From Tetraselmis striata (taxonomy: Eukaryota > Chlorophyta > Chlorodendrophyceae > Chlorodendrales > Chlorodendraceae): 64,000 bases of DNA. A program made the position numbers and the translations under genes. Below the pieces are notes generated by a model that made no database searches, had not been told where the DNA came from, and saw only the letters and a list, made by a program, of their open reading frames with translations. How positions within the stretch are numbered: position 1 is the stretch's first letter; every line of letters begins with the position of its first letter. Positions 3,301 to 48,800 of this stretch are shown one piece after another. The DNA lies in NCBI GenBank assembly GCA_006384855.1, contig VCJN01001679.1, positions 1-64,000 on the forward strand, given 5' to 3'.

Positions 3301-6096
3301 TCATCATGATTCGAACTGGTGACCTCTAGGTCCCTGGATATTGACAACTCATGCTCCGAAACCAGTGTCACAATCGAGGTGACATCCGCTTCTAAGCACA
3401 ACGCTTGCCACACGGCAACATTATATCGCACACATACTCGTAATCTCAGGTACACATCGCACTGGTACTCGTACTCGTACACATCGCACTCGTACTCACC
3501 CGTAGAACGTCGTACTCGTAATTGTCATCGTACACTATACCCCCCCCCCCCCCCGGACAGATATTCTGCCGGCTAACATCATCATGGTTCGAACTAGTGA
3601 CCTCTCGGTCCCTGGATGGAGAACTCATGCTCCGAAACCAGTGTAACAATCGAGGCGACATCCGCCTCAAAGCACAACGCTTGCCACACGGCAGCATTAA
3701 ATCGCATACATACTCGTAATCTCAGGTACACATCGTTTTATCACTCAAATACATCGTACTCGTCCTTACCCACAATATATCGTAACCGTAACTGTCACAG
3801 CGAGGCACCTCCACTATGCTCCCCCTTTTCTCCCTATGTCCCTCTTCCTTGCCCAGGCACATTACGGTTGAGTGCAGCAGGGAGAGTAGGAACAGCACTG
3901 GTATGTCGAGCAATCCGAGCTCGAGGGTCTACTCAAGGATAGCTAAGGGACATCACCTGGTGGCAGAGCTGGGACCCATGCTATATCCCCAGTGACCCGG
4001 TGTACGAACAAACCCCCCGTTATGGTATGGACAGCAACCCCCCGTTTAACTGAAGAGGCAGCAGCGGCACTGATGCCGAAAGCCGCGTTTGCAGCATTGG
4101 CAGGGAGAATGCAAGCAGGGGAAGTCGGGAGGGGGAGGCTACCTCCAAGCGGCACCAGGTGCGCGTCTGGGTGTCAAAGGCGAAGCTGTCCGATACGAAG
4201 GCCGCCCCGTTGTAGCCGCCGTGCAGCACGAGGTAGCGCCCCTCCACCACCTCCGCCGCGGCCTGCCTGCGCGGGCTCGGCGCCAAGCCCTGCCATGCAC
4301 CGGCGCACGCGGCCGCAGCATCAATCCCCACCGCCCCCAGCCTCCTCCTCCCCAGGTAGCCACACACCCCAGGGCAATGCGAAGAAAAGCGGAGGGGGGG
4401 TAAGGGGGGGCAGACCAGCGGCGGCAGCTCCTCCCAGTGCCAGGCGTCCAGGTCCAGGGCGTGGACGTCCCCAAAGTGCACGCCGCCGCGCCCCGCGCCG
4501 CCCGCAACGTACAGCACGTTCCCCACCACCGCGCTGGCGTGCCCGCGGCGCGGCGCGGGCGGGGTGCCCGTCGTCTCCGGCAGCCACCACTGCTCCGCCT
4601 CCAGATTGTACGCCCACAGGTCGTTCAGGAAGCCGGAGCACTGCGCGCTGTAGCCGCCAAACACCATCACGGTGCCTGGGCACACGCACGCATGCCCCGA
4701 CAGCGAGAAGGGCGCCCCCGGGAGGGGAGGGAGGGGGGGGGGGGGGGGGTCAGTAGGCGCTACAGGTCATCTTGAAATCTCCCCACCAATATGTGGGAGG
4801 CAGCCCCCCGCCGCCCGCGCAGCACCGGAGGCGCACCTGTGTTGGGCTCGTAGGCAAGCGCGTGCTGGGAGCGCCCGGGTGGCGGCCGCGTGACGGGCGC
4901 GGGTCGCTCCCAGTGCGCCGTCCAGCTGCGCAGCCGCGGGGCGCCCGCCTGCACCTGCCCACCGGGCAAACACGCATGCCGTGTTACGGCATGCGGCATG
5001 CAACTTGTAAAACAGGTGTTGAATCGATTTGTACATCTACATCTACATCTACATCTACATCTACATCTACATCTACATCTACATCTACATCTACATCTAT
5101 ATCTATATCTATATCTATATCTATATCTATGTCTATATCTATATCTATATCTATATCTATATCTATATCTATATCTATATCTATATCTATATCTATATCT
5201 ATATCTATATCTATATCTATATCTATATCTATATCTATATCTATATCTATATCCGTATTTGTAACCACCACTACATGATCTTTTTCTATGGTGCAGGCGG
5301 GCGCCCACAAAGAAATAAAATATTACCTTTGCCGACATTTTCCGGCGGAAACCGCAAATTAAACTGTACATTCGTACCCTATCCAATTCCCCACCGCTTC
5401 GCCCGGTCGGCGCGATTCGAGAAATAGTCGGTAAAGTCCTCTCGCGCGGCCCCCTCACTGCGGCCGGCGTCCCCAGGCAACCCGGCAGAGTCGTGTTCAG
5501 CATGTCGACAAGGGCGGAGCACACCCTCTCCCCCTGGTCACCTTGGAGAAAAACACCACCATGACCGTCGAGATGGCGAGCGATGACCCGCGTGCGCTGA
5601 CACGAAGCACGTGGTCTATGTCGGTAACTGTACGTTTGTGTTGCACAATAGCAGAACTAGCCCAAAAGGATTCCACGCGGGCCGGACTTGTATGTTGCGT
5701 TGCTCTGTCCTGCTGTTCCCACCACTATCATGTGGTGGCCTTAGCCTTGCGCTATTCCCACCACTATCATGTGCGGGTGGAGCATTCGAGTCGATGTACG
5801 TGCATGTCGATGTACAGCCGATCGATGATGCGAACCGACTCGACGCCGGGAGTGTACGAAAGGCCCGAGGGGAGCTGGCCAGGGAGTAGGGCACCTCGGC
5901 ATTGGCGCGCCGCTTCGAAATAAGGGCGTCTTGCTCCAGCTGGCTGAGCTCGGTTGGCTGGCCGCCCTCATCCCCGCTGCCCAGTTCGGCCAGCGAGTCG
6001 CCGTAGTCCGGGCGGATGTGCGCGATGTGGACGTCGCAGGTCTCCTGTCACACACGCAGGGCCAGAAGGCCATAGGTGCTCAGCCTCGTGCTCGCA

Positions 6097-15303: not shown

Positions 15304-17354
15304 TTACGATGCACGCCTACGCTTCCTCACTACTGTCACTGCGCTGTCCGGCTTGTTGGGGCAGGCAGCGCACCAGCTTGCTGAGGTGGGGTCCTCCCGG
15401 GGCAGCCCGAAGCGTGGCTGGCTCTTGCCGCACTCGCACTTCTTGCTCATCACATTCACTGCAGTGTCCGGCTTGGTGGGGCAGGATGCACACCAGCGTG
15501 CCAAGCTGCGCCCCTCTCCGGGCAGCCCCAAGGACGGGAGGCTTTTACCGCACTCGCACCTCTTGTGCACCACATTAACTGCAGCATCGGGCCTGGTGGG
15601 GCAGGCAGCGCACCAGCGCGCTGACCCTCTGCCCTCTCCGGGCAGCCCAAAGGTCGGGCGGCACTTGCCGCACTCGCACCTCCGGCTCACCACATCCACT
15701 GCACTGTCCGGCTTGGTGGGGCAGGAGGCACACCAGCGTGCCAAGCTGCGCCCCTCCCCGGGGAGCCCAAAGGACGGGAGGCTTTTCCCGCACTCGCACC
15801 TCTTGTGCACCACATGCACTGCGTCGTCAGGCTTGGTGGGGCAAGAGGCACACCAGCGTGCCAAGCTGCGCCCCTCTCCGGGCAGCCCCAATGAAGGCGC
15901 GCTCTTGCCGCACTCGCACCTCCGGTCCACCACGTTCACTGCGCTGTCCGGCTTGGTGGGGCAGGCTGCGCACCAGCATGCTGAGGAGGCAGCCTCCCCA
16001 GGGAGCCCCAAGGACGGGGTGCTCTTGCCGCACTCGCACCTCTTGTGCACCACATTCACTGCAGCATCGGGCCTGGTGGGGCAAGAGGCACACCAGCGCG
16101 CTGACCCTCTGCCCTCTCCGGGCAGCCCAAAGGACGGGCGGCACTTGCCGCACTCGCACCTCCGGCTCACCACATCCACTGCACTGTCCGGCTTGGTGGG
16201 GCAGGAGGCACACCAGCGTGCCAAGCTGCGCCCCTCTCCGGGCAGCCCCAAGGACGGGGTGCTCTTGCCGCACTCGCACCTCTTGTGCACCACATTCACT
16301 GCAGCATCGGGCCTGGCGGGCAGGAGGCACACCAGCGCGCTGACCCTCTGCCCTCTCCGGGCAGCCCAAAGGTCGGGCGGCACTTGCCGCACTCGCATCT
16401 CCGGCTCACCACATCCACTGCACTGTCCGGCTTGGTGGGGCAGGAGGCACACCAGCGTGCCAAGCTGCGCGCCTCTCCGGGCAGCCCAAAGGACGGGAGG
16501 CTTTTCCCGCACTCGCACCTCTTGTGCACCACATACACTGCGTCGTCAGGCTTGGTGGGGCAAGAGGCACACCAGCGTGCCAAGCTGCGCCCCTCTCCGG
16601 GCAGCCCCAATGAAGGCGCGCTCTTGCCGCACTCGCACCTCCGGTCCACCACGTTCACTGCGCTGTCCGGCTTGGTGGGGCAGGCTGCGCACCAGCATGC
16701 TGAGGAGGCAGCCTCCCCAGGGAGCCCCAAGGAGGGTTGGCTCTTGCCGCACTCGCACCTCTTGCTCACCACATTCACTGCAGTATCGGGCCTGGTGGGG
16801 CAGGAGGCACACCACCGCACTGACCCCCTGCCCTCTCCGGGCAGCCCGAAGCGCGGCTGGCTTTTCCCGCACTCGCACCTCTTGCTCACCACATTCACTG
16901 CAATGTCCGGCTTGGTGGGGCAGGATGCACACCACCGCGCTGACCCCCTGCCCTCTCCGGGCAGCCCGAAGCGTGGCTGGCTTTTGCCGCACTCGCACCT
17001 CTTGCTCACCACATCAACTGCAATGTCTGGCTTGGTGGGGCAAGATGCACACCACCGTGCGGAGACGCTGTCCTCGCCAGGTAAGCCCACTGTGGGCCGG
17101 CTCCTGCCGCACTCACACCTCTTGCGTACCACATCCACTACATTGTCTGGCTTGGTGGGGCAAGAGGCACACCAACGTGCGGAGGCGCTGTTCTCGCCAG
17201 GTAAGCCCACTGTGCGCCGGCTCCTGCCGCACTCACACCTCTTGCGTACCATGTTCACTGCGACGTCCGGCTTGGTGGGGCAAGATGCACACCATCGCGC
17301 AGAGCTGACGAGCTCCTCAAGCAGTCCCAAGGAGGGCGCCCCAGTGCCACACAC
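15304..17354 (-). CDS. Tandem cysteine-repeat protein resembling EsV-1-7 modules, with one frameshift
   Basis: About 17 repeats of 120 bp (40 residues) run through the interval. Each unit has RCECGKSQPRFGLPGE, then about 8 variable residues, then ARWCASCPTKPD and a hydrophobic AVNVVSK stretch leading to the next RC. Cysteine spacing is C-x-C-x19-C-x2-C-x14. This resembles the EsV-1-7 motif (from memory C-x4-C-x16-C-x2-H-x12, with FG after the second Cys and an NV..K linker), first described in a brown-algal virus and in the Ectocarpus IMMEDIATE UPRIGHT protein. Here the His is Cys and the first pair is closer. Zinc binding is likely; function is unknown. Two frames (17354-16296 and 16518-15304) overlap because a single base is missing near 16316. 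No convincing start codon or upstream exon was found. Plus-strand frames here are shadows caused by a period divisible by three. Confidence 0.6.
15304..17354. repeat. 120-bp tandem repeat array with a roughly 720-bp higher-order duplication
   Basis: The anchor CCGCACTCGCAC recurs every 120 bp from about 15429 to 16269 and, shifted by one base, from 16388 to 17228. Units near 15661-16020 closely match units 719-720 bp further on (16381-16740), and unit pairs 240 bp apart are nearly identical. This points to recent unequal exchange. The last two or three units on the right are more divergent. Confidence 0.95.
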
Positions 17355-19757
17355 GCACAGTCATTTGGGCATCGCGCCCCCAAAGGCCAGTACCGTGCCC
17401 AACGCACTCGCAAGTCGCGCAACGGTCGGCTGGAGCTGGCTGAACCGCTGAAGCTCGGTGGTCACAGGACAGCCGCCCGAGTGATGATATGGCACGGATT
17501 GTTAGGAGGGCGCAGGCTCCACGAGGACACGCACCATGGGGAGCATCTCCCGGGTCGGACAACTCGCTGTTACGAGTATGAACGGTGAGTCGTGTTGGTG
17601 GTGGTGGCTGTGGTGTTATGGTGGTGGTGGTCCGGTGTTCTGCCTTAAAATAGTCGCCACCGGTTGCCACAACCACGAGGAGTAGAGCGCACCGCCCGCT
17701 GCCACCGCCGGCACATTTTTTGTTGTTTTCCCGCCCCTGGGACAGAACTGGCACCAGTGAAACCCTTGCAGCGTCAGTTAGGCGGCCGCCGTTTGGGCAG
17801 TGATCCAGCTAGGGAAAGCCCTCGGTAGGGGACGCTCCGTTGTACTTGTCAAGCAAATGGCCGAAGCAGAAAAGCTTGCGCAAGACTGATTGAAGGCCAA
17901 GGACCGAATTTCCAACGCTGTTGGATAATCCAAGTGACCAGCCGCCCTGGTTGCCCACTGGACACGGAAGTGGACTGCGAAGCTCTCTGTGGCACAGCAC
18001 ATTTTCCTCGCCGAACATCTCTGTCGGCACGCCGGAAGCCGTCCTCCGGCCATTCGGCTTCGGCGGAAAATCTTTTAGGCCGGCCGGCCGACAATTACCT
18101 GCCACATCGCCGGGCCCCGCGGCCCGGCGCAAAGTGGGTTCTGCTTAAATGTAGGCTTTTTCCTTCCCCAGTACTTTCCGTGCATTCTCTTTGTCGGAGG
18201 GAGATTATTGAAGTGATGGCTGAGTGGCACTGTCACTAGGGGAAGAGTCGGCGAGAGTCGGCACGCATGCGTCGAGTCACGTCGAGTGTCAGCAGCAAGG
18301 TGCAAGCTGGAAAGGCAAAGGGCTACTGTGAGCCGTGGGCGATGGACGAAAGGTAGTCGCTGTCGCCGTGCTGATGGCTGAGTGGCACTGTCACGAGAGA
18401 AGGGGTGAATCAAAACATTTATGGGAAGAGCAGTTGACTGAATTCACAGGAGCCGAGGCTGACAATTTATACCAGCCGGCTAGGTGTCGACTAGGGCAGA
18501 CACCGCTCCATCAAAGAAGGCAATCTGGAAAAGAAGTCTAAGTGCCGTATTCTGGGTGCCGTAGCATCTGCGTGTCGTACATCTTAGGCACATGTACGGC
18601 AGCCAGCATTTCACTGGAAAATGCGGATTTCACAGAGAGAAAATGCGGATTCAGGGTACCGCGGTACCCTGGGTCCAACACTCTTGACGCTCTCCTAGTA
18701 ACCAAAAAGATCTATAATTTAAGTGAACCAAAGATTGCGTGTAGGCGATCATCCAAACTCTGTTGGATCACTGTCCAAACTACTGCCATCCAAATACCCG
18801 GCACTAACCACGAAAGGTCTTCCTTCCCAGTACTTTCCGTGCATTATAATGTAGCTAGGTAATGCGCTAGACGCTAATATCTATCCATGTAACCAATATG
18901 CACTTCACCACAAAGGTATGCCCTACCCGTTTGGGCGTCGGCCCATTCGAGGAATGCGAGTTGTGCCAAGCCCCATCCCGCGGAGCAAAGCTTTTCGGGA
19001 ATGCGATACATGTGCAACAAAAAGGCAGTCACTGTGAGATTCAGATGTGACATACAGGTGACGAAGCACTACTACTAGCGACTATTATTTATCCGTGAAG
19101 GCTGCTGCTGGTGGCGGCACGTCCATCCAGTTACGTGCGAGTACATCCGGCGTTATTGCCGGCGGGCGATAAATCCTTTTTGTCATCATTCTGGTAGTCG
19201 TACGAGCCCGGTAAAATGTTACATGGCACTGACGTACAAGGTACAAGGTTGTCCGTGCAGTACCGGGTAGTACGCGATATATTTATTGAGCCGGTACCGG
19301 GTATCTAGTACCCGGTACCCGGTACCCGGGCACGATGGACAGTGGTCCTGTGGATAACTACGACTATTAGTACATGGGAGCGCAAATCTCAGCCGTACTT
19401 TTTGGCCAAAGTGGGGAATTTTGTGTACATTATAGCTAGTACTGCTGAACGGGCCTGCCAGCCGTCCGATCAAAGGTCATCAGATGGGCGGTTTGGCTGC
19501 CATGTTTTGCCAAAGAGTGCTCATGTTACATAAATATTCGCGAGGGGGAGGGCGGGGGCAGGCAGCGGTTTGCCGAAGAATGATTGAATTACAACATTCG
19601 CGACAGCTGCCATCGGGGAATGTGGCCCGGCGGGGGGGGGGGGGGGGGGGGGGGGGTGTGCGGGGGCGGGGGGACCACGCCCGCCCCGCCCCCCCCCGCC
19701 CCCCTCGCCGCCAGCCGCTCCCGCCTGGGGGGGGGGGGGGGGGTAAGGGGGCGGGGG
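17355..19757. other. Intergenic region without recognisable genes
   Basis: It contains a GGT-rich microsatellite near 17590-17625, a terminal-repeat copy at 17727-17766, two copies of GATGGCTGAGTGGCACTGTC (near 18215 and 18372), two copies of CCCAGTACTTTCCGTGCATT (near 18169 and 18827), and a KpnI-like inverted repeat of CCGGTACCGGGTA/TACCCGGTAC at 19290-19330. Short open frames here lack coding character. Confidence 0.55.
17727..17766 (-). repeat. Dispersed copy of the DIRS-like terminal repeat
   Basis: On the minus strand it reads GGGTTTCACTGGTGCCAGT followed by TCTGTCCCAGGGGCGGGAAAA. It shares CGCTGCA-x-GGGTTTCACTG with the left terminal repeat at 27197-27237. No adjacent reverse transcriptase was found, so it looks like an orphan end. 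Confidence 0.55.
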
Positions 19758-27381: not shown

Positions 27382-28670
27382 CTAGTCGTTTTTCCACCAA
27401 CTCGCCAATTGGCGTGGCACGATCGCCGGGAGGGCGCCCCATGGCGTCATCCGGCCGAAAAGGTGCCGGGCCGCCGCATACGGCAGCGCACGACTAGGGT
27501 CGATGTAGTCCAGCACCATGTCGGACTCCTCGCCCCAGCCGCCGAAATGATTGATGTTCTGCATCATCACGCCGATGATGTATGTAGGCGGCAGCAGTCG
27601 CGCCCTTCCGTAGAGAGCAGTGCGACATCCAGACGAATCCCTCCGGGGGATGTTCGTCCACGGCCGCGAGGACGAGCTGCAGCCAGCGGGTCAGGGTGTC
27701 TGCTGTCCAAGCAGCGTACTTCTCGCCGTACTCAACGGCCCAGCTAGCCGCGGGCAGTCGTCCGCCAGCGAAAGCCTCGGGGTATAAGGAAACATGGGAG
27801 GCCTTCATGCCCTTGCGGACCTTGCTGACAAGGGGAGCGACGGCCATCGCCGCCAAGCCGTGGTCATGGAAAGAACCATTGAACGCGGACATGTAGGGCT
27901 GTAGGCTCGTGGATTTGATGGTCCTCAGGTTGCCGAGGTAGGTGGCGTACCGGGCCATCGTGCCTGGATCAGCCGCCAGGAGGGGCGCTGCTCCTCGTCG
28001 CAGAAGCGAAAATACATTGATCATGGATCGTGTGGCGGTAGCAGGTGTCCGCGGTCGTAGGGGCCCATGCCGCGGACAGGAGCTCCAGGGTCTGGGCTTC
28101 TAGGTTATCAGACCCTAGTACCTGGGCCATGTAATATGGCCGCATGGAGTGAGCCCACGGGTTCGTACAACCCGCGACTTTGATCGCGTACTTGATCTTC
28201 CGGGCGCACGCATCGCGCGGCCGAACCGCCGGGGGCATGTACTCGCACGTAGCCGGGTGCAGCGCCAACGTGGCACAAATCGTCCCCCGGTTCATGTACA
28301 TGCCAGCCGGCAAGGAACGCGGAACACGGTGACGGGCAAGTGAGGCATGCCGACAATACCGCGGCTCGCCCGCCGCCCGGGACGGAACAATCCAGCGCGC
28401 GGCTCCACCACCAGCTCCTCGCTCGCTGGCCATATCGGTAAGCGCATGATGCCACATCTTGCCCGGCCAACGGAGGGGCACCACAGTACCCGTTGCGCCG
28501 CTCTGGCGCAGCTTCTGGACGAGGGTGGGTAGCAGGTGCCAAGGTGCGTTGCACCAGTTGTTCTCGCGCCGCCATGCCGCATTCCCCAGGTGCAGCGCGT
28601 TTACCGCCTCGCACGTAGAGGCGAGCCACCCCGCGTTGTACCGGGGCAGCAGGGCTTTAAGGGCAGACAC
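27382..28670 (-). pseudogene. Tyrosine recombinase of the DIRS-like element, frameshifted
   Basis: From 28670 the frame gives SALKALLPRYNAGWLAS and ENNWCNAPWHLLPTLVQKL, typical of the linker after RNase H in DIRS polyproteins. It shifts near 28020 into TMARYATYLGNL and SLQPYMSAFNG, the SAM-like core-binding region. The catalytic half follows with SHCSLRKGATAA (the HxxR box), shifts again near 27572, and continues NHFGGWGEESDMVLDYIDPS with the candidate nucleophile tyrosine before a stop at 27382. At least two frameshifts break it. It would insert circular cDNA without target-site duplication. Confidence 0.8.
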
Positions 28671-30030
28671 GAACCGGTCGATCGTGTGGGTTCCGAACCG
28701 CGCATCCAGCTCCGCGAATCAAGAGCACCGGATCGAGTTGCCATGTGTCGCTGTCCAGGTGCCAGCACAGGCGGTTGGCCCACACGTTCGCCGCCGACAT
28801 AATGTAGTGCGCCCGCAGCCGGATATCTTGCGAGTCCAGTAGGTACCACAACCGCCGTAGCTCCGCCATCATAGCCGGGGGCCGGGACGTCAGGGTGGTC
28901 ATGACGTGACTTACTGCCGGATTGTCCTCGTGCAGGAGGACGTTGCGGCCGGCAAGGTGGGGCAGGAACGACTCGACCGCCAGCCGGACGGCCTTGAGCT
29001 CTTTCCATGCATTTGTGTTGCCGCTCGTCCTTGGTGCAACAGAACCCCCGCGCTTCCATCCTGCCATTCAACACACACCCCCAGCCGGAGCCGGAGCTGT
29101 CCGTGTGCAGATAGGCGGTCTCCACCGGGCGGTGGATGGGCTTGCGGTTGGCCTGAGTGGGCACCGCTGTCCACCATTGCATGTCTCGGCGAAGCTGGGG
29201 CGTCATCCGGACCCAGCCGGCGACGCGGTCCCCAAGGACGGAGTGCAACTCCCGCGGGGAGAAACGGGCGGGCGGAATTGCCAAAAAAGGTATATATAGT
29301 GCCTTGCCCGCTAGCGAGTGTAGGTCCCACGCACACACCGGCAGCCATCGTCGGGCGTTGAGGGTCGCCCTGCTGAGCACCTGCTTGGCATGGCTGGCCG
29401 GCTTCAACAGCTTGGCCTCCGGGGCGTAAAATACTACCCCCGTCGCTGAGTCGATGTTGATGCCCAGGTGGAGGCCAAACTGCGCGGGCTCCCTGGAGCC
29501 CTTCTCCGCGTGGCGCTCCGGGCCTAGTGCGTCCAACACGCGCTGTTGGCGGGCTCGGACGCCTACCGCCGCCGCGGCCTCCGTGTCCGCGAAGTGGAGG
29601 AAGTCGTCGACGTAAGGTAGGATGCGCGCGCCTCGCCAGCGCGCGTGCGCCGCAGGTAGCGGTTGGAGGGGGTGGGGGCAGAGGCTGCGGGGGCGGGCTC
29701 CGGCTCCGGCGTCCGCATGTGACGCACCTGAAGGTGGTGAAGTAGTAGGGCCTGAGGTACCAGCCCATGGGCAGCCCCGCTAGGCGGTAGAGGATCCCCC
29801 GGATGTCCACGATGAAGTAGTCCCGGTCGGCCTCCTAGGGCGTAAGACACGTCCTTACCTTGAGGTCGAAGGAGAACATGCATGTAGTCGCCCTTCTTGG
29901 TGAGGTGTCTGAGGCCCATAAGGGTCTCCATCCGGATGCGCTTGCGAACGCGATAGGAGTTGAGGTGGCGCAGGTCGATGATGAATCGCCAGTTGCCGCC
30001 GAGCTTGGGAACTAGGAAGGCCCGGGACAC
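28657..30030 (-). pseudogene. Reverse transcriptase and RNase H of the DIRS-like element, frameshifted
   Basis: The RT opens with SRAFLVPKLGGNWRFIIDLR and HLNSY. A pair of compensating indels near 29840-29865 disrupts the DLK-D region. It continues YRLAGLPMGWYLRPYYF and then ILPYVDDFLHFAD; the catalytic YVDD codons are at 29603-29614. After a connection (GKALYIPFLAIPPARF) the RNase H region starts with TAYLHTDSSGSGWGCVLNG, shifts frame near 29030, and runs WKELKAVRLAVESFLPHL and onward. A further shift near 28715 leads into the recombinase. These blocks are characteristic of DIRS-group RT-RH proteins. The copy cannot be translated intact. Confidence 0.85.
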
Positions 30031-38690: not shown

Positions 38691-41600
38691 CTATCGATAG
38701 ACCTGCGATGCGCCGCCATGTACCTGGAACCTGTCCACATGTCGGCGATAGACGTTGACGCAGTGACGCTCCATGCCCCAGTTGTGTGCATCTTTGCCGG
38801 TGAAGACCTTGACTAGGCCCTCAGCGGATGAGTCCGGCTGCATAGCTGGCACAAAGCTCGCGTAGTAGTGCTGTGCCTGATCTTCCGAGAAACCATACAG
38901 TGAGACCTGCAGACAGCCCAAAGCGTCAGATCACATGTGGGGACTGCTGAGGCTACTGTGCTCGGCAATCTAGGACAAGGTGAGCCAGCTTATTTCAAAG
39001 TACCATACAACTCGGACTGTTCCAAATCATGTGCGACTCCGCAGGCATACAGAGGCAGCAAACACAGCCCACATCAGGTTCCTACTTCTCACCCTTCCAC
39101 AGAGATGCATGGCCAGCTGTATTCCAAAGAAACCAGCTGAGAGTGTCTTGCCAAGTGGTTTGCGCTTCTTAAGCGTCTCGCCGTCTTCGGCTGCATGATG
39201 CCTTTGCTCGCCGAGGTCCGTGCTATGCAGCCGGCGGCGGTGCGGTTGCGGTTCCGCAAGATGCTGCGCCGGATGACTGAGATGTTGAGCCGTTCTCTGG
39301 AACACCGAGCGCGGGGAGCGTTGCGTGGCAAAGTCTTTAAGGTTCTGGTGCAGCACCAGCAGGCGGCACACGGGCCGCCCCACGTACTGGTAGCACCGCC
39401 CTATCCTATAATCCGTGGCCGGCAGCAGCAGCTCATCCCCGCGCTCACACCATCCGCAATGCCTGGGGCAGTGCAGTGTCAACATATGCAAGTTGTCAGG
39501 GCATGATCTGCGTCCTGGCCAGAAGACCCACGTAGTCAGCAGGCACCGCCACGTCAATCAATTTCCCAGTGCCGGGCCACACACCGGTTGTTCTGAAGGC
39601 GAAGTGTCGTCCTGCTTCCCACATCAGCTTCGTAACCCTCTGTTGGAGCCTTGTTGAAGCGGATGACGGCTGCATGCGTATCGATCTCAGGCCCGAGGCC
39701 CGACCCTGTGGATGCACGAATAGACCGGAATCAGCAGGTGTTCCGGTCAAGAGCGCGCCGGCATCGGAATCAGGCTGGATGTAATATAATTGGTTTATTG
39801 TAGGGTGTATTGGAATTCATTGTTTGTTGGGTTCTTGTGTATTGGAATCCCTTAGAACCCTGACATAGAACGCTGACGATAGAAAGACAGAATTGTAATA
39901 TTTACACTCCTCCACAAAAGTTTAGCCCTACACGAATCTGCATGTGGGCGCATCGCTGCGCACCAGCAAATAGCCAAACCATTTATAGTCTTTAACGTGT
40001 ACTGAAGCTTAGCTTCGATGACCTTGGTTGCAGCGCACCCTCCGAAATGTCACGCTGATGCATCATTTTCTGTAGTGCCCCTTTTCCGCTCACAGTGGAA
40101 AAATGCCGCGCGTTTCAGTATGAAATTGCATATTGCGGGATTGCACGCGTTTCAGCTTCATGGGGTTGCGCATGCCCCCAAGCTTATACGCACGGATAAT
40201 TTGATAGTGAATGAATGAACTGTGGGAGTGTCGTGCCATTTGGGTGATGACGTGGCATCGCAGCCGTGCACGCGCCACTACCCCTACAGTTTTGTCAGTG
40301 CTCGGAATGGCCGAAAAATGACGTCCATTTGTTGCATAACACGCGATGCGCGATATGGCCTAAGCTTCACCATGTCGATAGCCTATATTAAAGTCCTTCC
40401 GATGCACTGCGGGTTTTTAGGGTTTAGGGTTTCAGGGTTTCAGTTTAGGTTTTTAGGGTTTTCAGGGTTTTAGGGTTTTGGGTTTCCAAAGCACCGATTA
40501 CTGCGAAATCGCAGAAATTTCTACGCATTGCGAGCAAAAAAATGCCTGCCAATTTGGGAAAACGCTAAAATGAAGAGTTGTTTGTTTACTTGAGACCTTT
40601 AGTGGGCTCTGGTCTGAGGCACTATGGGTTGCACCTAGGGGCCCGTTACGGGGCCTAACATTGGGCTCCGCAGTTTGAAAACGTGTTTTTGGGCTCGCAG
40701 GCCCAATAAATGTTGGAAAATGGCAATTCTGAGCGCGAAATAATATCCGGGAAACATATGTCCCCTGAATTGTATGAAAGCGCTTTTGCGACGCGGTTTC
40801 CATGTGATCTCCGTGACACCATTTCACGGAGATATGCCTCTTGGCACACCCCCCAACACAGCATTTGTTTTTCCAACACTCACGGCGCTCAGATTCATGT
40901 ACCCCCTCGCGCAGAGACTCAGTTTTACTCAATAACAACATGGGATGGTCGCTTGGCACCGCTATGTCGGCGAATTTGGAAGACAATCGCACCAATACTT
41001 GCCAATACCGATATTCATATGCTCCAAATCCGCGCATAATGCTAAAAAGTAATGGGGCACTGTTGCAACTGTTCTACCACCTCATCACACACACCTCCGA
41101 GCCAAAATGAGTAACATTAACCAATTTAAGACGATGCACCCAGTGGCTATGGAGTGTACCTGCGGCTGGTCGAATGGCGTCCAATGATATTGCCGTATAC
41201 CCGCGCAATGGTAAATTTCCGCGTGTTGTGTGATTTTGGGGGGGGGGAGGGTGCAAGACTTTTGTGCGGGGTTGTACTCAGCAAGCCATCCCATTGTACC
41301 AGAGAGACATGGGCGCAACTCAGCGGCGGTATATGCACATCTGTGAAGCGCACCTGCTAAGACTCCTGAGCTGCCAACCACAGCGCAAGTGTCCCAGCTC
41401 GCCAGCTGCCTGAGGTCGGTTTCCGGAACATTATCTGTGGGCTGAAGCGGAACCTGGCCACACAAGCAGAGTCAGCCTTGATGTGAGGATGGGTAGGCGG
41501 ACCACGGATGCTTACTGGCATGGCCACGGGCATGGCGTTGAAAAGGTCGAGGCGCACCTCGTTGGGCAACTGTCGGTTGATGCTATCGCTCAGAGAGGAA

Positions 41601-43776
41601 AGCTCCCGCATGGCGCGGCGACCATGTGGCGGCGTTGCATTATTGGTGTGCTCAGCACTTGTTGTCCTCATTGCCATCCTGGGGTACAGCCGTGTGGCGC
41701 GGCGAATTATAAACATATCAGATGCGCACACCCGTATATTGTCCCAGCGCAACCCTCTTTCTAGTTCTCTCCACAACCCCACCGCGGCCGCTCAAAAGAA
41801 ACAGGCAGGAAGAATTTAAAACGCAACTCGCTGCGCGGGACGGGACGGGCCGGGGGCCGGGATGAGACGCTATCCCGTACGAAACATATCAATAGTCATC
41901 GGCTCCCCCATACTGGTATGGGACACCTTCAGGGCCGCAACGCCTGCTCATCCCGGAGGAGTGGGGGGGGGGGGGGGGGGTGGTCCGCCCCCGGCTTGCC
42001 CGGCGGCCCGCCCGGGACGAGACGGGATAAACTGGCCCCAAAACGCCAATTCCGTCCCCCGGCCGGGGGCGGGCGGGATGATGTGGTGTCACATACTTAA
42101 GGTCCCAATATTGATTTATGTCGTCCGGGCCCCGGGCGGGGGCGGGGGGTCGCTCGCGCCCTATGACGTCGCGACCTGATAATCTCTCTCCCACGCGGTC
42201 GCGGCGTTGCCGCCATCCCGGCACGTCTCGCACCTGAGAGTAATGCTGGGCATTGTCATATTAGCAGCTTTGTGTTGGCTGAATACAGAAGGGGACTGCA
42301 GACGCCACGCAGCCTCCATGCCTTTGAGTAGCCGATATAGCGCCGTGGAGATGTGACGCGCTGCCTCAATCGGCGCCTGGGTGGGTACATCATCCCTGCA
42401 CGGGCACGTGGCATGCGATGTGGGTACGCATTCTGGATGAGCATAACAACAGCAAACACTGCATAAGCCTGAACTCTCCGTGCCTGGCGCAGAAAACTCG
42501 ATAGAGCAGGGCTCCACATCTGAGTGGCGATGGCGCCCGCGGCCCCTTACCGTGCCGACAGCCAAGCCGTACGGTTCAGCGTGTGAATTTTAAGTCGCTG
42601 CATCTTATCTTCTCCATGTGGCAAGTCCGACGCATTGGCAATGATAACGCCAGCCATCTCGTCGTAGTCATCCCCGCCACCCTGCTGTTCAGTGGTCTTC
42701 TCAGCAGTGCCCTGCGTCACATTGTGGAGATTCCCGGCCTGCGGTCGCGTAGCGAATTATCAGAGGTAGGAGTGGCTGAGGCGCAGGCAGGGGCTGGGCA
42801 GAAACAGCGATAAGGGGCCAGTAGTCTCCATCGTGGTGTTAGTATCCGAAACAACAGCTACCTGGGAAGCATGCTCCCAGAAGGTCTGGAAGCAGTGCGC
42901 GTCTTCCGGGGGATGCAGCCTGGCTTCCCAGTCTAGCGGGCTGAATTCGCACTGCAAGCACGGCACCACAAGCCGAGTTGAGCTGCGTGTGGCGGGGGTT
43001 GGTTCATGCATCGAGCCAGTGCCCAGGCATCGGCAGCCTGCCCACCTTGCGGTGGTTGCCTGCGATCACGGGGCACGTGCAGGCGCCATCGACGCACAGG
43101 TGCGCGCCGCAGGCTGCCATGCACTTCTTCGCCTTCCTCTCCGTGAGAGCGCATGCAGCGGCCGCTCGTGCTGTGCAGCGCTCCCTGCAGGTTGCATGCT
43201 CTCCTCAGCAGGTTGTGTGGCGGAGCCAGGCACGAGTGGGGTGATGGGACTCGGCGCGTACCGGCACGTCCTCTGAGAGTCGCCATGCAGATGAGAACAT
43301 GTCCGCGATTCGCAATTCACCTGGGAAGGACCCAATGTCAGCCTGCATGCATCGCGGCCTGCTGCTATCCCAAGCTACAAACCCAGTAGCACATGAAATC
43401 GAAACATAAGCACTGGATAACTTACCTGGTTGTCCAGTGTGCACTGGGCCCAGACGGATTGATGCTTCCGCAAGTCCTACGCACACCGTGGATAAATGGT
43501 GGTAAGTCTTACATGAGTCGCCATGCCACTCTCACGTTGTTTACCTGCACGCAAGGCACATAAGCACAGCATCGCACCTCTACCACCTGGCTCCTGCAAT
43601 TGGGGAGGCAGTCGCCCGTGCATGGCATGCTGCACTCCCGTAGCCTGTTGTCATCCAAATACACCACAGTGAGACGCTGCAGCAAGGGTACACAGCGCAT
43701 CCCCCAATCCATCATGCAGCAGTCAACAGTAACGAAGACTTTGCCAATCTGCATCACATTGGACCCCCCCTCTCAC

Positions 43777-43826
<50 letters not shown>

Positions 43827-43897
43827 CCTCCCTCCCTCCCTCCCGCTCTGTCTCCCTATCTATCTATCCATCTATCCATCTATATGTATATGTAGAC

Positions 43898-43964
<67 letters not shown>

Positions 43965-44629
43965 TATATATATATATATATATATACATATATATAATAG
44001 AGAGAGCGAGTGTATATATATATATACATATATATAATAGAGAGAGCGAGTGCTGGGAGTTCCGTTTACCTGTGCGGAGAATCGCACTTGTCTGTCTCAC
44101 ACTCATTGCGGCACCGCTGTCTGCCGCACTGACTGTCCAATGCAGCCACAACGCACTCCTGCAAGCATTTCACCTCGCAATCCAGTCCTCTTGTGCACGC
44201 GGAACCTAGTATCGAGCCATTCAACGTTTTGTCTTAGACATGCAGCCTGCTTTGCGCTGAGTGTCATGGGGATTATACCTGAGCTGCGGCAAAAACGATC
44301 TCAAATGCTCTGCCGCTAACGGCGTACCTGATGGAGAGCGGAAGCTCTTCACGGTATGGGCGGGCTTTACCTGCGAAATCGGCATCAATATGCTTAGCGT
44401 TATTGTTAATGCTTAGCGTTAATGTCCAAGCGTTATCACTTCCCGTCTCCGAAAAAATGAAATGATAAACCTTCCAATACTACAGCAAGCGTGTTCACAG
44501 CGCGTTGTGTTGGCAGAAATTGCTTACCGTGCCGTTTGCGCGGACCACAGGTTGGTAACTGCACAGTTCCAAAGCCACGAGCAGTCGACACCCAATGACA
44601 GCCAGCACTGCGCGCCTGGATGGCCGCAT
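38691..44629 (-). CDS. GT29 sialyltransferase-like glycosyltransferase with a long cysteine-rich stem
   Basis: Exons: 44629-44528, 44370-44328, 44205-44070, 43748-43545, 43476-43426, 43320-43262, 43184-43046, 42951-42862, 42738-42573, 42519-42234, 41678-41516, 41453-41354, 39705-39585, 39507-39093, 38906-38691; about 760 residues. The N-terminus ([20 protein letters not shown]) is a signal anchor or signal peptide. About 450 residues of Cys-rich stem follow ([42 protein letters not shown]) with sequons NVT, NAS and NRT. The C-terminal third has the GT29 sialylmotifs: L ([12 protein letters not shown], spliced to [16 protein letters not shown] and DVGSRTT), S ([14 protein letters not shown] spliced to VSLYGF), III (HYY) and VS (HNWGME, HxxxxE). 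GT29 enzymes transfer CMP-sialic acid or related sugars in the Golgi; algal members are usually only sialyltransferase-like, so the donor is uncertain. One junction (exons 3 to 4) is out of phase by one base, and the 42573 donor is a choice. Confidence 0.82.
40403..40490 (-). repeat. Degenerate interstitial telomere-like (TTTAGGG) array
   Basis: TTTTTAGGGTTTAGGGTTTC and further TTTAGGG, TTCAGGG and TTTTAGGG units lie within the 1.6-kb intron between exons 12 and 13 of the GT29-like gene. Shorter TTTAGGG-like runs occur near 51568, 51965 and 56305. Confidence 0.8.
43770..44050. repeat. Compound microsatellite (CT)n, (CCCT)n, (CTAT)n, (GA)n, (TA)n
   Basis: It fills almost the whole intron between exons 3 and 4 of the GT29-like gene. 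Two copies of ATATATAATAGAGAGAGCGA (31-bp period) close it near 43990-44050. Its instability may underlie the one-base phase conflict at this junction. Confidence 0.95.
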
Positions 44630-45879
44630 CTTGCGCACTTGTCGCTGGCACGTAGAGGTTTGCTGATCGCGAACAGGGGCGTCGTACTTTGGCGTCATTC
44701 GAAAACCCTCCGCCGGCGGAACCCGGGGACGACTTGCGTGCCGACGACACCCTAACCCTTCGAGCTGGGCTGTGGCCACGTAGCACTGTGCTCGCCTTTG
44801 TTGCACCAGCGCAGCTGCTGCACGGCCAAACCTCGACGCAGTTGCTTTGTGCACGCTGCGCATGCCCGGCAACAGATGCGGTTGTAATCGTACCAGTAGT
44901 CGTATCCTGCTATATTGCGAGTGCGTACTAGGACCATTCCAGCACTCGTAGTTTTGCTCGTACGGATACCGACCTGTACGTAGCTATTATCATATCGGGC
45001 GGCGAGTAGACGTCTAGAGATGATGATGATATAGCAATGACCCGTACCGTTTGAACACGAATAATAGAAGCGCGACAAACTACACAGTACTAATAGTATT
45101 GTTGGGTGGTCATTAACCCGTACTGGTACTCCCACCCGCCAGTAATGAAATACTCGTACATGTACCGGATTCATTGCTGACCTTTTATTGATTGTAATTA
45201 CACCCCGGTCCCGGGCCGGTACGGTAAAAGTAAAGTTCGCCCCGGGACATCGGACGAAGCCGCCCCAGCACTCGCTCTTGACCTCTTGCGCCAGCTGCAG
45301 TAAGAGGATTAGCCCGCAGACCATTTGCCTCATCCGAACCCCGGAGGGCAATGAGATACTGTATATTATTACTATTAAGGTGTACCACTCAGATTGTCAT
45401 ATACTATTGCTGATGATTTGATTATGACGACGGCTACAGCCTCAAAGTACTGGTGGCGACGACCAGGATGATGACGATGCTACCGGTACTACAGCGGCGA
45501 CGGCGCTATGCTGACGAATTACGACGGTACGATTGCTGAGCGCTGGTGTGACGACGATGACAACGCCGACAAGGAGGACTGCAACCGCACTCTGCTACCA
45601 AGTCCACCTTCCGCAACGAGTGGCGAACTGGCACCGCGAACGTCGGTCATTTTTTTCCATTGACGGGTGACAGGGTGCCACCAAGTGAGCAGGGTGCCGG
45701 GCGGGGGACCCCCGTCCCACGACGCCCCGGCCCGGTCCAGCACTCGTAGTTGTCCGCGGTCGCCGCGGTCGTCACCCGGAGAAATACATGCATTTCTGGT
45801 ACTCGTACAGTAGTTGCACGGGTGTAGCTGTGTTTGCGTCGACGACGAGCTGCAGAGCTACAGGTACTGTACTGCAAAA
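44630..45879. other. Bidirectional intergenic region between the GT29-like and surface-protein genes
   Basis: These 1.25 kb separate two divergent starts (44629 minus, 45880 plus) and must hold both promoters unless upstream exons exist. No TATA-like element could be assigned with confidence. A signal-peptide-like frame on the minus strand (45333-45204) is entered separately. Confidence 0.5.
45204..45333 (-). CDS. Signal-peptide-bearing exon, possible alternative first exon
   Basis: MRQMVCGLILLLQLAQEVKS is a good secretory signal, followed by ECWGGFVRCPGANFTFTVP and a GTGTAA donor in phase 1. It lies 0.6 kb upstream of the GT29-like gene on the same strand, but no in-phase acceptor linking it to that gene was found. 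It may be an alternative first exon, a small separate gene, or chance. Confidence 0.3.
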
Positions 45880-48800
45880 ATGGACCGCACACGGACCGGA
45901 CTTGCATCGGCAGCGAAGCGTCTCCGAGGCACGTGCGTCTTCGTTGTCGTCGTCGTGTGCGCAACATTGCTGCTGACCGCCGCAGCCTCGGAGACTGGGG
46001 AGGTGCGTTGCCTGGGCTGGCCAGAGAAGGTGAATGGACGCAAGTGTGTCGTTATCAAAGTGGACATACCGTACTCAACTGACGCCAACGTCTCGGGCAC
46101 GAGGCGGATACAGGCGGCTGCTCCCGAGTTGGCTACTGCTTCGCCTCAGCAGGGCTGCCGTTGTAGGGTAGGCGGGAGGTGAACAGAGCTATTGAGTAGC
46201 CCCGCGTCCGGGAGATACTAAGCAAGGGACCATCATCCCCCTCTCCCGCGCACCCTTACTCCCGCCCGCCCCTTGATTAGGTGTGCCAGTGGTATGGCGG
46301 CGACGTCGAAGCTTGCGGCCTCGGCATGGCTGCCTATCTGCAGCAGGCCGCGCGCAACGCAATCATACCCAACGAGGTGGCGCATCTATACTTACAGGCT
46401 CTTTTGCAGTGCTCGCAAGCTGCCGGTGAGGAGTCTTGCCCAAGCACATGCGTGTGGCGAGAGGACAGGTACGCTGCAGACCTGGCCAGCCCGATGGATT
46501 GGCGCAGTGGCCTCCAGTCACCGTGTGCGCCACCCTGACCTAGGCAGTCGAAACCGCACACTAGTTAGGATTGTATATGTGCTGCCTCTGCATGCAGAAA
46601 CGGGGATACCCACCCTGTTGGATCGTTATTGTTAAAGGATGCGGGACCATGGGAGGTTGGGCTTGTTGGAGCCAATGTGCGTTGGTATGTGCCGCTGGAC
46701 GAAGTGCATCAGCGAATCGCCTTTGTTTATCCTGACGAAGCTCAGGAGAGGCGAATGGGGAGGATCATTACTATGAACGTGCTGACACAGGAAAACCAAT
46801 GGCGCGCACCGGTGGCGGTTAGCTCAGGAAGCTCATGATTGAAGTGAATGACGATAAGCGAGGTGCATCGCTGTGTACGTATCAAAAGTGTCGAGTTGCT
46901 GCGGACGTATACCAGCAAGGATTAGCAATCATACCGACTGCGGCCACTCACCCAATGCGTTGTTCTGGGGTTGATTTTTGAACGTATGGTGCTGCTCTGG
47001 TATAATAAGTCAGCTTTACACTTACACATCCCTCTTTATTCTGGTAAAAGATATAAGGCAGCTCAAAGCCGCCATTGTTATATATAAAATATACTTATAT
47101 AAGTGTATATTTTATGTAAATATAATGTGGATGCGCTGACTGACAGATTCCATCCGCCGGCTCATCCCATCCACGCAGATGCCAGACACATCTGGCACAG
47201 CTCCGCCAGAGCCTATTCCAGTATTGCGGCATGGACTACCCGATCATTGCGGCCTCGTCAACGGCGCGGTGCGCTGCTGCCGCACGGCAGAAGGACTGCC
47301 CGCCAGGCAGCTGCGCCTGGGACGCCGCCGCGGGCGTCTGCGGCCTGTCGCGTGCGCAGTCAGAGGCGCTGCGCTTTGTGTCAACGCCGCTGCAGGAAGT
47401 CAAGCTGCTTGACGCGGGACTGTGTGGCGCCATGACGCCCGGCGAGTGCATGTCACCGTGCGCTGAGGCGGCAGGCGGCGATGGCAGGTGCCATCTGAGT
47501 CCGGAGGCCGTCAAGCGCGCGGTGCTTCCGGTGGAGCTCCCTGCTTCGATGGCGCTGTCTCGTCAGCCTAGAGCGGAGATGTCCCGCGACGGCCTCCGGT
47601 TTGAGCTCCAGCATGCGGAGTGCCACCAGCGGCCGCGGCGCTTCTGCTCCGGCCGGTGTCAGTTCAGCGCCGCGCGGCAGAGCTGCGGCGCGAGCCCGGC
47701 GTACCTACAGGCCATTGACTCGCCGCCCGGCAGCTGGGAGATCGCGGTTGCGCTGACAGACATCGAGTGCAGCTGGCGCGCCAAGGACGACGCCAGCGCC
47801 TGTGCTGCCACGGACGTCAACACCACTCTCGCTCTGGCAGCGGGCGTGCTGACAGAGCAGCCTTGCGCCTATGACCACGAGGCGGAGCGTTGCGGTGTCT
47901 CCGCGGCAGCGGGCGAGAAGTTTGTGCTCGCCACCAGCCAGGTCAACCACGCCTTCGGCGCCATCAATGTACAGAACGCGGCGTGCCAAGAGCTCGGCAA
48001 TGCCGCGGCGTGCGCCTCGCAGGAGCGCTGCGTCTGGCGCGGTGGTGGGTGCACTGTCGCGGAGCACTTCAAGATGACGAGGTACGAGCTATACCACCGA
48101 CCTTCCAAGCGTCTTTGTTTGCCGCACACCCCCATTCTGAGCACTCTATTAACACGTTACTTTTAGTTCAAACTCAATTCACAAGTCAGGAGTAATTGCA
48201 GCCAACGTCTCACTACTACATCTGATAATTTAAACTGCCTAATGATATTATTGCTACTAGTACTCGGTACTATAACCATAATATAACTATTAGTATTAGT
48301 AACTATAATCGGAACTAAGTCTATGTGTTTATTGTATTACTGCTACCATTACTATTAGTATTACTATTAGTAATGGGTTTATCTGTTAGATTATATAAAT
48401 ACCATTCATATTGCTATTACTTTGGCCACTCGCCGTAGCCCCAAGATGGCCACTAATAGCTAGCTGTCGGTGCTAATTCGATAGTAGACTGCAGGCCAAT
48501 ATGAGTAGCGCCACATACCTGTGGACGGCTGCGCTCCTCCCCATAGGACGCCGGCGCTAAAGCGTTGCCTCTGTCTTACGCGCCGCGGGCAGGTTCGCGA
48601 ACTCCTCGTCATGCGCCGACGTCGTGCGCTACCTCACCGTCTGCGAGGCCGCTGGCGGTGATGGCGCATGCCGCAGGTTGGCCTCGGCAGGCTGCCGCTG
48701 GAGCAAGCAGCTCGGGGCTTGCCAGCCGACGGCAGGGGGACTGCTGAGCCTGGCTTCTGGGGGTGCCAACTCGCGCCTCGGCTCGCAGATGCTGAACAGT

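Follow-up and report, generated by a model that had tools for sequence, protein, structure and literature searches.

Does the cysteine-rich sequence that precedes a glycosyltransferase family 29 (GT29) domain in the green alga Tetraselmis striata belong to the enzyme and, if so, what does the enzyme transfer? The locus lies in a 64,000-nucleotide stretch (assembly GCA_006384855.1, contig VCJN01001679.1, positions 1 to 64,000 of the forward strand; "the window" below), in which an initial annotation had read a sialyltransferase-like gene with a very long stem. We found that the cysteine-rich exons belong to the GT29 gene, and sequence comparison indicates that the stem is coding sequence under selection within a GT29 subfamily; the name "sialyltransferase" probably gives the wrong substrate. 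The explanation that we hold to be probable is a transferase of 3-deoxy-D-manno-oct-2-ulosonic acid (Kdo) or 3-deoxy-D-lyxo-hept-2-ulosaric acid (Dha) type that would serve the cell covering and whose disulfide-rich stem would position the enzyme or its acceptor.

Membership in GT29 can be read directly from the spliced protein. Pfam family PF00777 matches residues 498-699, in the C-terminal third, with an E-value of 4.5e-31 and a score of 108.7 bits (cut-off 23), and a Pfam search of the whole protein with E-values up to 10 returned no other family. All four sialylmotifs lie where the initial annotation had read them on the minus strand: motif L starts at residue 507, motif S at 665, motif III (HYY) at 694, and motif VS (HNWGME) at 722. 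Motif L spans the intron given there as 1.6 kb, a GT-AG intron of 1648 nt, and motif S is also split by an intron, its second exon resuming at VSLYGF. The closest solved relatives are ST3Gal1 (E-value 1.5e-17) and ST6Gal1 (2e-16), in alignments covering motifs L and S only; a catalytic role has been described for the histidine of motif VS (PMC10225777; this and the other papers below are cited from partial text). Among other GT29 genes of the assembly, whose contigs we denote by C and a number, the HxWxxExxC pattern of motif VS is also present in C149, C2762, C2182, and C53, and a CGxxE signature downstream of motif L is shared by the window gene, C149, C2182, C2762, C53, and C306. Outside the alga, none of 7 pattern matches in viral contigs and 85 in prokaryote genomes was confirmed as a relative of the catalytic domain.

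The evidence that the stem belongs to the enzyme comes from searches of the alga's own genome (224 Mb, 2903 contigs). The full protein retrieved its nearest catalytic relatives, and the stem alone gave weaker matches on C149, C2762, C2387, and C2182. In C149, C2762, and C2182, three stem modules (A, B, and C) lie upstream of GT29 exons in unchanged order. Module C queries from C2762 and C149 match exon 7 of the window gene (E-values 9.7e-5 and 7.2e-5) and also revealed two loci, C95 and C1901, that carry modules A, B, and C plus GT29 exons, module B of C1901 having been identified by eye from the bases. Stem queries reached eight loci at an E-value of 0.01 or below across the 224 Mb, six of which are GT29 genes (the window gene, C149, C2762, C2182, C95, and C1901). 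The two other loci, C2387 (0.005) and C2590 (0.009), are the weakest cross-matches and were dropped as stem genes, as GT29 motifs were absent from 4.5 kb on both strands of the former and from 2.2 kb on the plus strand of the latter; C53 and C306, with a fragment of module C only, were excluded from the six. A module A query from C2182 matched, in the whole genome, only itself and exon 3 of the window gene, the latter with an E-value of 0.057.

The modules are conserved. Since the automatic spliced alignment of the paralogs was unreliable in the linkers, comparisons were limited to the modules and catalytic blocks. All seven invariant columns of module A across the six genes are cysteines, as are all four of module B across four genes, and the 11 invariant columns of module C across six genes comprise eight cysteines plus a glycine, a histidine, and a proline. 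Over 119 stem codons, the closest pair, C95 and C1901, shows nonsynonymous divergence (dN) of 0.121 and synonymous divergence (dS) of 0.590, a ratio of about 0.2; the 62 changes fall 11, 14, and 37 by codon position, and 19 of 19 cysteines are kept. It is this combination of module linkage, invariant cysteines, and the dN/dS ratio in C95 and C1901 that indicates selection on the stem as part of a GT29 subfamily, while the presence of the same three modules upstream in five other GT29 genes assigns the cysteine-rich exons to the GT29 gene. The fusion proposed in the initial annotation is thus borne out at the level of DNA, both by one open frame in the window and by the recurrence of the pairing in those five genes. 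Our search of the open-access literature found no report of a cysteine-rich stem on a GT29 enzyme.

The gene structure was read directly from the DNA. The gene occupies the minus strand from 44698 to 38691 in 15 exons, with splice sites read by hand; 14 of 14 introns are GT-AG, the spliced frame of 752 residues is stop-free, and as far as the DNA shows the gene is genuine. The initial annotation had set the start at 44629, which proves to be Met-24 of our model; the frame opens at 44698. The features are as follows.

44528..44698, minus strand: exon 1, with the inferred start methionine and the hydrophobic segment of residues 30-48; the frame is open, the donor reads gtaagc, and hydropathy peaks at 1.89.
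44279..44370, minus strand: exon 2, linker, residues 58-87; GT-AG, phase-consistent, without homology support.
44070..44189, minus strand: exon 3, stem module A, seven cysteines, residues 92-123.
43545..43644, minus strand: exon 4, with residues 132-159 forming stem module B (CxxxCxxxCxxxC).
43426..43476, minus strand: exon 5, inferred stem linker, one cysteine; GT-AG, phase 0.
43262..43374, minus strand: exon 6, inferred stem exon, four cysteines; GT-AG.
43046..43184, minus strand: exon 7, stem module C (C3C..C..C3CGxHxC4CxCP).
42862..42951, minus strand: exon 8, stem, CEFSPLDW...HCFQTFW; GT-AG, weak resemblance by eye to C2182 and C2762.
42551..42738, minus strand: exon 9, cysteine-free linker with three sequons; GT-AG, open frame.
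42234..42458, minus strand: exon 10, second cysteine cluster, residues 357-375; GT-AG, open frame.
41516..41678, minus strand: exon 11, cysteine-free linker ahead of the catalytic domain; GT-AG, open frame.
41354..41453, minus strand: exon 12, start of the GT29 domain and first part of motif L; PF00777 on its open frame, E-value 0.019.
39706..41353, minus strand: the intron inside motif L, 1648 nt, GT-AG, with degenerate TTTAGGG-like repeats.
39585..39705, minus strand: exon 13, second part of motif L; PF00777 1.6e-14, ST6Gal1 (4mps) 2.6e-11.
39093..39462, minus strand: exon 14, CGWCE segment (compare CGYCE/CGFCE in C2762 and C2182) and first part of motif S, a region covered by the ST3Gal1 (2wnb) alignment.
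38691..38906, minus strand: exon 15, remainder of motif S, motif III (HYY), motif VS (HNWGME), and stop; open frame to the stop.

The acceptor of exon 4 (start 43644) was set by phase and by the equivalent exon start in C2762 and C2182, where the matching exon opens immediately ahead of the first module B cysteine. Residues 30-48 form the one hydrophobic stretch, at the N-terminus; it contains one arginine and one glutamate and is predicted to be a signal anchor or a signal peptide. Within the introns we observed a degenerate TTTAGGG/TTTCAGGG run at 40410-40500 (in the 1.65-kb intron) and CT, GA, and AT microsatellites at 43760-44045 (between exons 3 and 4).

The stem proper comprises residues 49-506. 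Its length of 458 residues agrees with the roughly 450 residues first proposed, whereas the description of that length as cysteine-dense does not hold throughout: the 34 cysteines fall in two blocks, at 92-282 (28 cysteines in 191 residues) and 357-375 (6 in 19), and residues 283-356 (74 residues) and 376-506 (131 residues) are free of cysteine. The stem does bear N-glycosylation sequons, six in all, yet none within the cysteine blocks; five lie in the cysteine-free stretches and the sixth at residue 55. CxxxC predominates in the conserved cysteine spacing, and module C alone has a C-x4-C-x-CP tail; the excess of CxxxC in residues 88-282 is modest (8 against 3.8 by shuffling, p 0.017).

The initial annotation had likened the modules to EGF-like knots, and the possibility that they are diverged epidermal growth factor (EGF)-like domains, comparable to those of the GT47 enzyme ExAD, is a rival reading that we consider unlikely. 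The module C tail is like the latter half of an EGF domain, and weak Pfam matches point the same way: module C of C149 matches EGF_Tenascin at an E-value of 0.31 and EGF_2 at 0.5, and the C306 piece matches EB at 0.05. ExAD, found in plants and algae, also offers a precedent as a Golgi transferase with structured cysteine-rich stem modules (PMC5371791); its catalytic fold and donor differ, and its modules are EGF-like domains, whereas those of the window protein do not score as EGF. No stem module reaches a Pfam cut-off, no EGF model matches the window protein or its stem with E-values up to 10, and the sole Pfam match of the stem alone is Ferredoxin_N at 0.19. Module A of three paralogs instead gives weak matches to TIL (0.03-0.065), two of them also to GASA (range for both families, 0.03-0.09). 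Profile searches against the PDB returned nothing for module C and, for module A, only the alpha-hairpinin BWI-2c (2lqx) at a nonsignificant E-value of 3.7. An AlphaFold model of the window's module C alone, built with no alignment, has low confidence (mean predicted local distance difference test, pLDDT, 57.7; predicted template modeling score, pTM, 0.33); it places four of the eight cysteines in two helices (cysteines at module positions 2 and 6, and 24 and 28), against an EGF-like fold, and closes with a short beta hairpin (33 and 38), in its favor. The model hints at compatibility with a CxxxC helical hairpin followed by an EGF-like tail, and by the Pfam cut-offs and the prevailing CxxxC spacing the EGF-like assignment is not upheld.

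Genes in the assembly bear on which sugar the enzyme would transfer. The assembly carries a green-type rbcL gene, whose nearest PDB entry, 1gk8, is from Chlamydomonas. Kdo genes are seen directly: exons of Kdo-8-phosphate synthase (KdsA) lie on C272 and exons of cytidine monophosphate (CMP)-Kdo synthetase (KdsB) on C2770 and C1901, at least the last being the alga's own because C1901 also bears a stem GT29 gene. Synthesis of CMP-Kdo thus seems to be within the alga's capacity. Since the assembly includes bacterial contigs, pathway matches need checking contig by contig; C240, C396, C1804, and C2034 were judged bacterial by eye from their neighboring genes. Both matches to the sialic acid synthase NeuB in the whole assembly lie on such bacterial-looking contigs, C396 and C2034 (the latter near flagellin), and NCBIfam classifies the C396 protein as a pseudaminate synthase; no sialic acid synthase of the alga's own was found in the assembly. 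Production of CMP-sialic acid by the alga is accordingly not supported, and uptake or an unusual pathway may supply it. Bacterial gene content was also observed on C240 (another Kdo-8-phosphate synthase match, kdsA adjoining enolase) and C1804 (a full CTP-transferase).

Published work bears on the choice between the two sugars. The plant GT29 protein MGP2/RCKT1 is required for Kdo on rhamnogalacturonan II (PMC11288761), Kdo-type and Dha-type acids occur in prasinophyte scales and the Tetraselmis theca (PMC10762512), and it has been proposed that GT29 switched from sialic acid to Kdo in streptophytes and perhaps prasinophytes (PMC5811610). Plant RCKT1/MGP2 is like the window gene in being a GT29 of the green lineage in an organism with a CMP-Kdo pathway, and unlike it in that the partial text mentions no cysteine-rich modules (PMC11288761). 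ST3Gal1 and ST6Gal1 share homology of the catalytic domain and motif order with the window protein; they use CMP-N-acetylneuraminic acid (CMP-Neu5Ac) as donor, and their intermediate stem region is described, in the text available, with no mention of such modules (PMC10225777).

The size of the GT29 complement adds context. PF00777 has at least 152 matches in the genome, a lower bound with 142 of 355 candidates scored; the 150 matches listed form 137 clusters on 122 contigs, some of which are probably haplotype pairs because their scores are equal. Arabidopsis has three GT29 members, against more than 100 clusters of matches here. The clusters differ in architecture, with long unbroken frames on, for example, C511, C1528, C665, and C586. 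At 19 other GT29 loci we saw neither module C nor CGxxE; absence of the stem there is weak evidence because most loci were viewed with only about 1.5 kb upstream, and loci with a nonfitting motif L (such as L015 and L018) were excluded. The sialidase-type family PF13088 has 112 matches genome-wide, with bacterial and algal contigs not told apart, and those on C908 and C2498 include tandem-like groups. Joint expansion of GT29 and sialidase-like families is likewise seen in the scaled algae Bathycoccus prasinos and Mantoniella, where GT29 families have been linked to scales (PMC3491373, PMC11106453); Bathycoccus has 69 GT29 and 23 sialidase-like copies (PMC3491373). The Bathycoccus GT29 proteins resemble the window protein in their N-terminal hydrophobic segment and four motifs, and their stem is highly variable (PMC3491373), which makes the earlier generalization that known GT29 stems are short too strong. 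Their genes are almost all intronless, with no cysteine-rich modules mentioned in that partial text, whereas the window gene is intron-rich and its cysteine modules are conserved.

These data allow the possibility that the enzyme is a true sialyltransferase to be weighed, with a donor of CMP-Neu5Ac or CMP-2-keto-3-deoxynononic acid (CMP-Kdn), made by the alga or obtained from bacteria, and a role opposing the genome's sialidase-like enzymes. All four sialylmotifs of the animal type are preserved, and the closest relatives of known structure are sialyltransferases of animals; the 112 PF13088 matches and the production of Kdn by haptophytes (PMC6200933) also favor it. Yet PF13088 by itself is silent on which keto acid is cleaved, NeuB is confined to contigs of bacterial content, those CTP-transferase exons that lie on contigs of the alga are of KdsB type, and in algae the Kdo and C9 pathways are reported to be mutually exclusive apart from some haptophyte exceptions (PMC6200933). 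We judge this reading quite unlikely, and with it the substrate name in the initial annotation is probably to be given up. A non-enzymatic role, as a lumenal scaffold or lectin on a GT29 fold, might be affordable to a cell that has more than 100 GT29 loci; given that all four motifs (L, S, III, and VS) are preserved along with the VS histidine, we regard it as very unlikely. That the cysteine-rich exons form a separate upstream gene for a secreted cysteine-rich protein, with the GT29 gene starting farther down (the outcome that would have undone the proposed fusion), draws on exons 9-11, which lie between modules and enzyme without homology support, and is scarcely tenable given the recurrence of the modules, in unchanged order, next to the GT29 exons of five other genes, the open frame connecting modules to enzyme in the window gene, and the identity of six of eight stem-query loci as GT29 genes.

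Under the Kdo- or Dha-type explanation, the N-terminal hydrophobic segment would direct the protein into the secretory pathway, presumably to act in the Golgi lumen. The C-terminal domain would be an inverting GT-A-like transferase that moves an ulosonic acid from a CMP donor, most likely CMP-Kdo and possibly activated Dha rather than CMP-sialic acid, to a cell-covering glycan; His-722 in motif VS is the predicted base. Modules A and B would be CxxxC repeats, perhaps short helical hairpins, and module C a set of CxxxC pairs followed by C-x4-C-x-CP, with putative disulfides throughout and glycosylation sites carried by the cysteine-free linkers. The stem would most likely serve as a rigid platform in the lumen, holding the catalytic domain away from the membrane and docking the acceptor or partner enzymes. 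A more specific proposal, which is possible yet doubtful, is a subfamily of Kdo/Dha-type GT29 with an apparently undescribed A-B-C stem, co-inherited with the CGxxE and HxWxxExxC signature, in which each of the more than 100 GT29 enzymes of one cell would be directed by its stem to a particular glycan of scale or theca.

Several observations weigh against the Kdo- or Dha-type explanation or the parts on which it is built. Exons 2, 5, 6, and 8-11 are supported by splice sites and open frame alone, and the arginine- and glutamate-containing hydrophobic segment may be a signal peptide instead. In short-block trees, the stem-bearing and partial genes group together in just 60% of bootstraps with 10 rows, where long branches were flagged, and in 80% with 16 rows; C95 and C1901 lie outside these trees, and their enzyme was seen only as the motif L region and the CG segment. 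The sole structure model, that of module C, decides nothing at its pLDDT and pTM. The KdsA and KdsB exons score under the NCBIfam full-length cut-offs because they are single exons. At face value the 112 PF13088 matches favor sialic acid, and the Bathycoccus authors interpret their families as sialic acid metabolism, although they note sialic-acid-like polysaccharides of Scherffelia scales as well (PMC3491373).

Elsewhere in the window, an open frame on the plus strand at 45880-48166 stands head to head with the GT29 gene and has a signal-like start and cysteine-rich segments (e.g. 47144-48166); three scanned pieces of it matched no Pfam family at 0.01. On the minus strand, 15304-17360 holds tandem repeats of CECGKSxPxxGLPGEGRxxARWCASCPTKPDxAVNVV, which may resemble EsV-1-7 repeats; their first part (15304-16545) matched no Pfam family above cut-off. 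Also on the minus strand are a Kelch-repeat protein segment at 4020-4766 (PF24681, 5.2e-36) and an open frame at 28601-29779 whose YVDD segment suggests a reverse transcriptase, with no Pfam match at 0.01. An Rfam search of the window gave no matches.

We know of no enzyme shown to place acidic 2-keto sugars in scales or theca. Prasinophyte scales and the theca of Tetraselmis are characterized by such sugars (PMC10762512). The approximately 137 listed GT29 clusters, the sialidase-like matches, the Kdo genes, and the conserved stem supply concrete candidates for their transfer, and the stem-bearing GT29 set offers a way to test whether Golgi transferases owe their choice of acceptor to their stems.

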